The notes beneath the pieces are model-generated. The model was not told the origin of the DNA and did not search any database. It saw only the letters and a list, made by a program, of their open reading frames with translations. Positions 55,815 through 59,834 of a stretch of 60,262 nucleotides of DNA are shown here, in pieces; position 1 is the stretch's first letter, and every line of letters begins with the position of its first letter. The stretch is from Candidatus Saccharimonadota bacterium (GTDB lineage: Bacteria > Patescibacteriota > Saccharimonadia > Saccharimonadales > UBA4665), in assembly GCA_018062785.1 (NCBI GenBank), contig JAGORO010000006.1, forward strand, positions 1 through 60,262, given 5' to 3'. The translations under genes were made by a program, and so were the position numbers.

Positions 55815-56096
55815 CTATCTACTTAAACCGCAATTAGGAGGGATCTCCTCTCCTCCTTGTTGAAGGTAAGCGATGGAATTGCTGGATAATTTTGAGCAAT
55901 CAATTCTTTCGTTTCTCTGATTGTAAAACGTAATAGTAAGTGCGATGAGTGGTGCGACCACGAGCATAACCAGGTAAATAATGGCGGTTCCTGTATCGAG
56001 CCCCCAATTGATCTTTTGCTTGGACTTTTTTCTTGATGGCCATGCGGCTAAAAGTTCGTCAGCTGCTGGTCCGTATGAAATTTTCTTCTTAGACAT
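55815..56096 (-). CDS. Small single-helix membrane protein
   Basis: 93 residues: a Lys-rich cytoplasmic start (MSKKKISYGPAADELLAAWP, SRKKSKQK), one membrane helix (AIIYLVMLVVAPLIALTITF) and a Cys-containing outer tail (RIDCSKLSS...IPPNCG). I start at MSKKK because AAAGGCGG lies just before it; the longer frame extends into a structured leader. The function is unknown, and it is the first gene of the operon with the zinc-ribbon gene. Confidence 0.65.
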   Translation of the reverse strand: MSKKKISYGPAADELLAAWPSRKKSKQKINWGLDTGTAIIYLVMLVVAPLIALTITFYNQRNERIDCSKLSSNSIAYLQQGGEEIPPNCGLSR

Positions 56097-56422
56097 GTTC
56101 CGCCTTTCCTTGATTTTGGCGGGAACCAAAAAGCCCGCCACGAGCGGCAGCCTTTCAGCTACCCACAAACCTTTCGGAATGCGACAACGGAAAGAAGTAC
56201 TCATGACGAGCTGTTTCTTTCCGTTGATTTGATGACCGTACCTTCCTGCAAGCAGGTGGCTCTAGGCCGGAGTGGTTAAACCACTTGCAGATGATTATAT
56301 CAAGTGAATGCCCGGAGGGGCACCCCCTTATCACCGGATTTTGCCTCAGGCGTGAGAAAGCACTATATAAACCACGCTCCCACCGTGTCTATAAATTTTT
56401 ATAAAATTTTTGCAATAGGTAC
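56097..56422 (-). promoter_or_regulatory. Structured 5' leader before the small membrane gene
   Basis: On the minus strand there is a TATAAT box (rc of about 56296-56301), then CTGCAAG...CTTGCAG, a perfect 12-bp hairpin CAACGGAAAGAA/TTCTTTCCGTTG (rc of 56187-56225), and TGGCGGG/CCCGCCA with a T-rich loop just upstream of the ribosome site. A long leader with stacked hairpins suggests attenuation or another RNA switch, but this is inferred. There is no ORF worth calling in it. Confidence 0.45.
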
Positions 56423-57451: not shown

Positions 57452-57477
57452 TCTAACCCACCAACTATGATCGTTGT

Positions 57478-57526
57478 GTACGGTCAGATTGAAAGGCACC
57501 CATACCTGACCGTACGGGTGCCTTTC
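57478..57526 (+). promoter_or_regulatory. Two interleaved complementary arm pairs (pseudoknot-like leader)
   Basis: Arm 1 GTACGGTCAG (57478-57487) pairs with CTGACCGTAC (57506-57515). Arm 2 GAAAGGCACCC (57491-57501) pairs with GGGTGCCTTTC (57516-57526). The order 1-2-1'-2', with 1' directly touching 2', is that of an H-type pseudoknot or of two mutually exclusive hairpins (the second resembles a terminator). All 21 base pairs are perfect. A ribosome site (AAAGGAG) and the next gene follow within 30 bp. Confidence 0.65.
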
Positions 57527-57948: not shown

Positions 57949-58092
57949 ATGAAAGCACCGCCTACCAGGCAGCCCGATTACGAGGCTCTTCGCAGGATCC
58001 TGCAACAGGATCTCGGCAAAAGCGTTGATCTTGCCACCGCCCGTAAGATTGGGCAATGGCTACTTCGCTTTTACTCGCACTTAGCAGAGTAG
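57949..58092 (+). CDS. Very small helical protein of the mobile module
   Basis: 47 residues (start MKAPPTRQPDYEALRRILQQ, ending WLLRFYSHLAE) with GGGGGAA just before the ATG. An amphipathic helical protein with no membrane segment. It is probably a helper or regulator of the recombinase that follows; no family was recognised. A short AT-rich repeat tract (CTATATATA) lies just before it. Confidence 0.6.
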   Translation: MKAPPTRQPDYEALRRILQQDLGKSVDLATARKIGQWLLRFYSHLAE

Positions 58093-58111
58093 CTGGAGTA
58101 TAATACTAAAC

Positions 58112-58207
58112 GGACACAACTCAACTAACGGTATTTTTTCTGCCTTGAAAAGGGGCGGTTTGTACAATTCCGTTAGGGGTTGTGTCCAGCAAGCCGTCCC
58201 TTTTTGA
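58112..58207 (+). promoter_or_regulatory. Interleaved long stems before the recombinase gene
   Basis: Stem 1 is GGACACAAC + CTAACGG (58112-58131) with CCGTTAG + GTTGTGTCC (58170-58187): 16 bp with a 4/2-nt interior loop. Stem 2 is TTGAAAAGGGGCGGTTTG (58145-58162) with CAAGCCGTCCCTTTTTGA (58190-58207): 18 pairs of which four are G-U and none a true mismatch. The order is again 1-2-1'-2'. A ribosome site (AAAGGAG) and the recombinase ATG follow within 26 nt. It may be an RNA switch, or a DNA element used by the recombinase. Confidence 0.7.
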
Positions 58208-58232
58208 GTGGTGGCAGAAAAGGAGAAAAGCT

Positions 58233-59834
58233 ATGAATACTAAAGATAATCGAGCCGTGACTCTTGCTCGTGTTTCGTCAAAGGAACAAGAGGAAGAGGG
58301 CTACTCGGTAGATGCGCAGACTCTGTACTTGAAAAAGTATTGTCAGGATCGAGAACTCAAGGTTGTTAAACCGTTTGAGATCGCGGAGACAGCCTCGAAA
58401 CCCGAGATGCGCAAAGAGTTTCAGCTTTGCATGCAGTATCTCGACAAGAACAACATCAAGAACTTAGTGGTTGAGAAAGTTGACCGACTTACTCGCAATA
58501 GTCAGTCTGCAATCGAAATCGATAACTGGCTAGCAGAAGATGCGGATAGACGCCTCCACTTACCCAAAAATGGTTTGGTGCTACATAAAAACTCCACTTC
58601 ACAAGACCGTTTTATGTGGGACATCTATGTTGCGGTTGCAAAGCAGTACACCAATAATCTCCGCGAGGAAGTTAAAAAAGGCGTTATGGAGAAGCTGAAC
58701 CAGGGTTGGTATCCTGGCACTCGCCCGCCTGTTGGTTATGTGCATTCCGGAGAGAAAGGCCGCAAGACACAAGTTGTGGATCCCACTACTGCACCGCTCG
58801 TTAAACTTGCATTTGAGCTTTACGATACTGGAAACTACTCGATCAAGACGCTTTGTGCTGAATTGAAAAACCACGGACTCGTTAATCGAGTAGGTAAGCC
58901 CCTTTCTAAAAGCTATGTTCACTATATGCTTCGTGACAAGTTCTACATCGGCATCATGACCTGGATGGGCGTTGAATACCAGGGCAAATTTGATCCAATT
59001 ATCGATGAAGATTTATGGGAACGAGTACAGGCTCGACTTGGCAGCGGTACGACGCCACGGGTTGAGAAAAGGCTTACTCTTATGCATCGAAAGGCAGTAT
59101 GTGAAGAATGTGGCGGTACTATCTCGTGGTATGAGCAAAAAGGAAATTGGTATGGTGAATGTAAGTCGAACAAGCCATGTACAGTCCGTGGATGTGCTCG
59201 TCAGGACAAGATCGAAGAAGAACTTGCTGAGTATTTCAATGAGCTTATAGCACCCTCTCCTGCCCTCATAGCGTGGGTTAAAAAGGAGCTCCGCCAATCA
59301 CACGCAAGCGAAACCGAACAATATCAGGCTTCGATCGATAGATTGCAAAACTCGTTACGACGTTTAGACACTCAGCTCAAAGTCCTGTATGAAGATCGTT
59401 TGGATGGACGTATTAGCTCTGAGGTTTATGATCAGAAGTTCAAGGAAAAGAAGGACGAACGTAAGTCGATAGTTAAAAACATAGACAGACTTACAAATCA
59501 GAACACGGAATATATCGAGCAAGCAATCGACATCCTAGAGCTTACGCAGAACGCTGCTGAGATCTTCCGTACTAAACCACTCGAGGAACAGCGCATCCTC
59601 CTCGGAGATATCTTCTCTGCCATCACACTTAACGGCAAGCACATGAAAGTCGTATGGAAGCCGGAAACAGAAGTAGTTCGAAACGCCGTTGAAAAAACAA
59701 AACGGCTCGAGAAAATTCTCGAACCGTCTTCTGACCCCAGTAAATTGGTACTTTCTGAGGCTTCTCGTTCAATATGGCTCACAACGATAGAGGACGTTAT
59801 AACCACAATCAAGCAAGATTTAGCTTCGAGTTAG
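58233..59834 (+). CDS. Large serine recombinase/integrase
   Basis: 533 residues. The N-terminal resolvase domain has ARVSSKEQ with nucleophile Ser15 and VEKVDRLTRNSQSAIE. The recombinase domain follows (about 160-270, GTRPPVGYVH..., SYVHYMLRDKFYIG), then a zinc ribbon (CEECGG...CKSNKPCTVRGC) and a coiled coil near 370-430, the normal layout of phage and transposon integrases. I use MNTKDNR (AAAGGAG upstream). The longer frame starts inside the structured leader. It should insert and excise the surrounding element. Confidence 0.95.
   Translation: MNTKDNRAVTLARVSSKEQEEEGYSVDAQTLYLKKYCQDRELKVVKPFEIAETASKPEMRKEFQLCMQYLDKNNIKNLVVEKVDRLTRNSQSAIEIDNWLAEDADRRLHLPKNGLVLHKNSTSQDRFMWDIYVAVAKQYTNNLREEVKKGVMEKLNQGWYPGTRPPVGYVHSGEKGRKTQVVDPTTAPLVKLAFELYDTGNYSIKTLCAELKNHGLVNRVGKPLSKSYVHYMLRDKFYIGIMTWMGVEYQGKFDPIIDEDLWERVQARLGSGTTPRVEKRLTLMHRKAVCEECGGTISWYEQKGNWYGECKSNKPCTVRGCARQDKIEEELAEYFNELIAPSPALIAWVKKELRQSHASETEQYQASIDRLQNSLRRLDTQLKVLYEDRLDGRISSEVYDQKFKEKKDERKSIVKNIDRLTNQNTEYIEQAIDILELTQNAAEIFRTKPLEEQRILLGDIFSAITLNGKHMKVVWKPETEVVRNAVEKTKRLEKILEPSSDPSKLVLSEASRSIWLTTIEDVITTIKQDLASS

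Follow-up and report, generated by a model that had tools for sequence, protein, structure and literature searches.

The 60,262-nucleotide stretch of contig JAGORO010000006.1 that we analyzed (hereafter the window), from the 862-kb genome assembly of a Candidatus Saccharimonadota bacterium, contains a mobile-element serine recombinase gene whose leader probably acts in cis as a bistable, two-state 5′ RNA that limits translation of the recombinase, with a first stem (S1) marking the ON state and a second (S2) the OFF state. By comparing related sequences we identified the helices of this leader, their covariation, the position of the promoter, the association with the recombinase gene and the overlap with the ribosome-binding site. 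The leader contains two interleaved stems whose arms occur in the order A-B-A′-B′, and its features, with the evidence for each, are as follows:

58099–58104, + strand: −10 box TATAAT, which puts +1 at about 58112 (sequence)
58112–58131, + strand: arm A, 5′ half of S1 and predicted 5′ end of the mRNA (sequence, covariation)
58134–58163, + strand: arm B, 5′ half of S2, with a U-rich 5′ part that is an anti-Shine-Dalgarno sequence (sequence, covariation)
58162–58171, + strand: segment C, which pairs with 58176–58185 (S3) and is the rival of A for A′ (covariation)
58170–58187, + strand: arm A′, 3′ half of S1 and, in the S2 state, the partner of C (covariation)
58189–58223, + strand: arm B′, 3′ half of S2, overlapping the ribosome-binding site (covariation)
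58220–58225, + strand: Shine-Dalgarno sequence AAGGAG (sequence)
58233–59834, + strand: large serine recombinase of 533 amino acids (Resolvase PF00239 and Recombinase PF07508 domains)

S1 comprises 18 bp, with an outer part of 11 bp including one G-U (58112–58122 with 58177–58187), a continuation of 7 bp (58125–58131 with 58170–58176) and a bulge of 2 nt on the 5′ side. S2 comprises about 30 pairs between B and B′ in which every deviation is a G-U: its core (58144–58163 with 58189–58208) is an unbroken run of 20 pairs without mismatch, of which 15 are Watson-Crick and 5 are G-U, and its outer part (58134–58144 with 58213–58223, 11 pairs) lies over part of the Shine-Dalgarno sequence of the ATG at 58233. 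A preliminary description of this DNA had placed interleaved stems at 58112–58235 and had held that the differences in stem 2 are all G-U; the stems are indeed present there, slightly larger than described, and the composition of the S2 core bears out the second point. The interleaved score of the leader (70) is the highest on either strand of the whole window, the maximum in 20 shuffled windows being 59, and the two halves of the leader have folding z-scores of −8.2 and −5.5 relative to dinucleotide shuffles.

The same arrangement recurs upstream of serine recombinase genes in related genomes. Among 76 recombinase upstream regions drawn from the source genome and 60 relatives, 18 carry the A-B-A′-B′ order at high score and immediately 5′ of the gene, with letters that differ between them; these leaders score 55–83, and 456 dinucleotide shuffles peak at 52. 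We built two covariance models, one (R1) from five leaders with stem 1 as the sole structure, and the other (R2) from four leaders with stem 2 and the inner hairpin as the structure and no stem 1. R2, which was built without the window leader, recovers 58111–58222 with an E-value of 8e-8. Matches to R1 and R2 comprise 47 distinct leaders among 247 relatives, and 22 more were found across the phylum Patescibacteria (CPR). A serine recombinase, as identified with phmmer, begins at the end of the leader in 57 of 66 tabulated matches, a finding that fits the earlier suggestion that the structure controls recombinase production, and inspection of three later matches (L163–L165) places a recombinase directly downstream in these as well. 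Seven serine recombinases in the source genome have a leader (on contigs C4, C8, C10, C17, C18, C20 and C21) and one, on C14, has none. The window leader itself has the A-B-A′-B′ order, a −10 box immediately before A and a serine recombinase immediately downstream.

In nearly all leaders examined the −10 box keeps a short spacing to arm A. When 85 nt are scanned, the hexamer most like TATAAT ends 3–8 nt before arm A in 56 of 59 leaders, mostly at a spacing of 5–6 nt, an arrangement that would be expected by chance in about 4 of the 59. Transcripts are therefore most likely to start with the first base of A, a start predicted from the match to the promoter consensus. The preliminary description had named a start downstream of 58190 as evidence that would tell against a structured RNA; the −10 box predicts one at about 58112 instead.

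We assessed covariation on two alignments, A5, which was fitted with R2 and is hence blind to stem 1, and A6, which was fitted with R1 and is hence blind to stem 2. On A5 the outer helix of S1 is 89.5% paired, six of its ten pairs are changed on both sides, and there are 63 both-side changes as against 20 in shuffles; sliding the S1 partner by 1–3 columns lowers pairing to 22–48%. On A6 the S2 core shows 14 both-side cells as against 3.7. When each stem is instead scored on the alignment fitted to it, the S2 core is 97.8% paired on A5 with both-side changes in 12 of 14 pairs, and 29 of 30 S1 pairs in subfamily II are changed on both sides on A6. Both-side changes also occur in 10/10 pairs of S3, the inner hairpin between C and A′, and in 12/13 pairs of the outer part of S2 over the ribosome site, on an alignment (A5) that leans towards both of these helices. 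The comparative alignment of recombinase leaders that the preliminary description had called for thus reveals strong covariation of both crossing helices, with each model containing only one of them.

The wobble pairs are informative as to the strand on which selection acts. Pairing within DNA predicts that G-U and A-C are equally frequent, because an A-C on one strand is a G-T on the other. On the mRNA strand of the 41 leaders of subfamily I, however, deviations in the S2 core comprise 74 G-U and 0 A-C, and on the sense strand of subfamily II they comprise 24 G-U and 2 A-C; the excess is weaker in S1 (43 G-U versus 14 A-C and 15 versus 8 on the sense strand of the two subfamilies). That deviations are G-U and rarely A-C argues for selection on the sense RNA. 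Together with the compensatory changes in both crossing helices and the placement of the −10 box, this excess supports the earlier claim of constraint at the RNA level. Inverted repeats beside a recombinase gene are typical of cruciforms, operators and attachment sites, and the leader might on that ground be taken for an element that functions as DNA. We consider this very improbable and rejected it on the strand asymmetry, and it is also at odds with arm letters that vary between loci while pairing is retained, with a position anchored to the promoter, and with the many relatives whose tRNA genes lie past the 3′ end of the recombinase, away from the leader. A serine-integrase attachment site in particular does not account for wobble pairs that are strand-asymmetric or for arms that covary. 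An RNA-level role of a different sort, as a substrate for RNase III or an antisense RNA in which S1 is cut or paired in trans so as to free or silence the ribosome site, is suggested by the long, near-perfect duplex that S1 forms where the mRNA is predicted to start; such a role would not call for S2 and S3 to covary, and we think it a poor prospect.

Because the B:B′ pairs all cross the A:A′ pairs and the linkers are short, the full stems are mutually exclusive; with stems as long as 18 and 30 pairs, linkers of this length leave no room for complete S1 and S2 to coexist. A true pseudoknot could nevertheless be envisaged in which S1 and only the outer part of S2 form together, with the inner part of B′ as a linker, and the composite blocks the ribosome, given that B lies within the S1 loop and that the 3′ part of B′ is distant enough from the base of S1 to reach B. 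We regard this as improbable, as the inner S2 core and S3 covary as strongly yet would be without a role in such a fold, and the short linkers bar both complete stems from forming simultaneously.

Constrained folding, in which energies ignore pseudoknots, gives the S1 and S2 states similar mean energies (−37.9 and −38.8 kcal/mol, respectively), with a median difference of 1.3 kcal/mol and 25 of 60 leaders within 3 kcal/mol. S2 is the preferred state of the window leader, by 12 kcal/mol if stem 1 alone is considered and by 3.4 kcal/mol once downstream local pairing is permitted. Folding of successive prefixes indicates that S1 is optimal once A′ is complete and stays so for about 20 nt, after which S2 overtakes it in leaders that favor S2. 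Nested refolding barriers in six leaders are about 18–38 kcal/mol with pseudoknotted intermediates ignored; intermediates with partial pseudoknots might reduce the barrier or might themselves be the functional fold. Since the two states are similar in energy and separated by a high barrier, the choice between them is probably made during transcription, and a decision so made would be lasting, barring help with refolding from pseudoknotted intermediates or from a factor.

The two states differ in what they do to the ribosome site. With S2 formed, B pairs with 14 (median) of the 20 nt that precede the start codon, and folding predicts that on average across the family 2.3 of the 6 Shine-Dalgarno bases are paired in S1 and 4.7 of 6 in S2. 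Some of the leaders found across the phylum lack a clear Shine-Dalgarno sequence. For the window leader, our scorer has 2 of the 6 bases covered in the S2 state, and in the S1 state local pairing takes up 5 of the 6, so the ON/OFF contrast of the family average is absent here. Prediction and covariation together thus describe, at the level of the family, mutually exclusive folds over the ribosome site of the kind found in riboswitch expression platforms; in the window leader alone, the Shine-Dalgarno sequence is only partly covered.

We infer the ON/OFF polarity, a decision during transcription, its kinetics, and the presence or absence of a trigger. In the mechanism we propose, transcription would start at the first base of arm A and, as the RNA emerges, A′ would be taken either by A, forming S1, or by the neighboring segment C, forming S3. 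In the S1 state B would be held in a loop with the ribosome site exposed (ON), whereas S3 would run on into B:B′ and zip into one long S2+S3 hairpin that masks the Shine-Dalgarno region (OFF). The choice of fold would then be a race between A and C for A′, and recombinase output would be low, pulsed or regulated. A bolder version, which we hold tentatively and as possible rather than probable, is that the switch is ligand-free and co-transcriptional, that competition of A and C for A′ splits new recombinase mRNAs into translated and silent ones, and that it does so phylum-wide, such that recombinases are rare or pulsed.

The choice between the same two folds could instead be set by a factor that binds one of them, be it a metabolite, an RNA-binding protein of the host or the recombinase. 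The letters of B:B′ are conserved beyond what pairing needs, which hints at a trans-acting factor, and a degenerate 22-mer from B/C, TTTAATRGCCGTCTYGKACAAT, has exact matches in 10 records from a set of about 85,000 species genomes; the architecture, moreover, is that of riboswitch expression platforms. A responsive leader of this kind seems to us rather unlikely, as a conserved, unpaired, aptamer-like core is not seen in the alignments, the conserved bases lie almost entirely within the S2 and S3 helices, and the leaders have no match in Rfam. The 22-mer precedes recombinases in all 10 records, nine of which are labeled as CPR lineages and one as TM6, and it has zero matches in viral contigs. 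The labels are Saccharibacteria, Magasanikbacteria, Moraniibacteriota, Shapirobacteria, Woesebacteria, Parcubacteria group and TM6, and the leader of the TM6-labeled record is identical to that of a genome (G441) placed in the same phylum, Patescibacteria. Candidatus Saccharibacteria is the label of several of the leader-bearing records. Searches with the leader DNA against phage and plasmid collections, and a protein search of a genome contig collection, returned no match.

In the window leader and in subfamily II, a G+C-rich S2 core precedes a U-run such as UUUUUGA, and S1 precludes S2, all of which would suit a transcription attenuator with S2 as an intrinsic terminator and S1 as an antiterminator. 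A run of at least five T residues after A′ is present, however, in only 19 of 60 leaders (the window leader among them), subfamily I reads AUUUAAG at this place, still paired with B, and the outer part of S2, where it lies over the ribosome site, shows covariation that a terminator would not require. We find an attenuator improbable and have discarded it as a general reading for want of a conserved U-tract.

Regulators of this general kind, in which a leader acting in cis can fold in alternative ways over the ribosome site, are known. As in the translational platforms of riboswitches, the 3′ arm would mask the ribosome site and a rival stem upstream would prevent masking; unlike riboswitches, the leader has no recognizable aptamer, starts at +1, has no Rfam match, and contains an A′ with two competing partners, A and C. 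With terminator/antiterminator attenuators it shares sequential, exclusive stems and, probably, a decision during transcription, but its order is crossed (A-B-A′-B′), S1 and S2 share no arm, and what is conserved is the cover of the ribosome site and not a U-tract. In transposase leaders of the IS10/IS50 type, mRNA structure masks the start site and limits mobility, as the recombinase leader would, although there the blocking stem is present only in read-through RNA begun outside the element. The recombinase leader has its own predicted promoter, which starts at arm A, and its native mRNA has both folds; we therefore set aside read-through protection of the IS10 type. Metastable mRNAs of the hok type resemble the proposed switch in that alternative folds of the mRNA of a mobile element set its translation, and differ from the leader in having a toxin gene, 3′-end pairing and a known antisense RNA. 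A search of Rfam 15 at gathering and relaxed thresholds gave nothing credible on the leaders, its matches elsewhere being to tRNA, tmRNA, LOOT and SAM only, and a literature search limited to open-licence papers found no description of them. The architecture, gene class and phylum-wide distribution of the leader thus appear new.

What we describe looks like an uncatalogued family of structured RNAs associated with a single gene class in Patescibacteria, a phylum whose gene regulation and mobile elements have received little study. In the three-way covariation of A, C and A′ there is a record of selection for two folds instead of a single one, a clear comparative signature of an RNA switch. If the two-state mechanism is correct, it would explain how these epibionts restrain several recombinases together (there are at least seven leaders in the source genome), and would supply a natural, promoter-proximal expression switch for bacteria without genetic tools.

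A second structure of similar layout lies upstream in the window, before an ORF of 100 amino acids:

57466–57526, + strand: upstream leader, a layout analogue with TATGAT followed by interleaved S1 and S2
57477–57487 with 57506–57516, + strand: S1 of the upstream leader, 11 bp
57491–57501 with 57516–57526, + strand: S2 of the upstream leader, 11 bp

Its TATGAT is followed 5 nt later by the compact interleaved pair and then by a U-rich tail, and its S2 stops short of the ribosome site. The preliminary description saw one form shared by two genes; the layout and the promoter spacing are common to both, but kinship found no support, as homologues of the 100-amino-acid protein retrieved by protein search lack an interleaved leader and a DNA search found no relative with the interleaved layout, two weak DNA matches being spurious. 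We regard the upstream leader as an analogue whose kinship is unproven, and possibly as a terminator-type attenuator.

Other features were noted around the recombinase genes. An ORF of 47 amino acids (57949–58092, + strand) adjoins the leader on its upstream side and resembles, by eye, the ends of small ORFs that precede four other recombinases (L011, L012, L013 and L015; LRxIL...IGxxLIxFYxxL). These four have the small ORF directly upstream and lack the leader, and ORFs of this type may encode a conserved partner protein that could be a directionality factor. A LOOT RNA (RF03000, E = 1e-8) at 56146–56268 on the − strand, at the start of the ORF 55815–56204, is a different structure from the leader and a second structured RNA in the neighborhood. 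Integration at tRNA genes is suggested by nine loci (L004, L005, L006, L010, L016, L022, L025, L029 and L032) in which such genes lie past the recombinase on its 3′ side.

Some leaders have unusual surroundings. Six (L132, L135, L136, L137, L142 and L145) have no adjacent recombinase and carry a sequence close to AAAAGTTCTTTAAAATTTTTGCGTTTTT immediately 3′ of the leader, and in L132 an inverted copy of it occurs about 310 bp further on, just 5′ of a recombinase; these leaders may be MITE-like inserts or remnants of recombination. In four others (L128, L143, L156 and L157), AAAAAGAATTTTTGC lies a few tens of bases 5′ of arm A, and its inverse, GCAAAAATTCTTTTT, lies at the codons for QKFFLY in the recombinase. 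A short inverted repeat thus flanks promoter and leader; this could mark an invertible segment or be a chance similarity. A weak model match, L124 (1501–1631, − strand; E = 9.5e-4), has crossing stems and a −10 box and is followed by a gene for a predicted secreted or membrane protein and no recombinase. In L098 (1501–1619, − strand), the leader is intact with its ATG and continues into unrelated sequence in place of the recombinase, as though the gene had been cut off precisely at its start.
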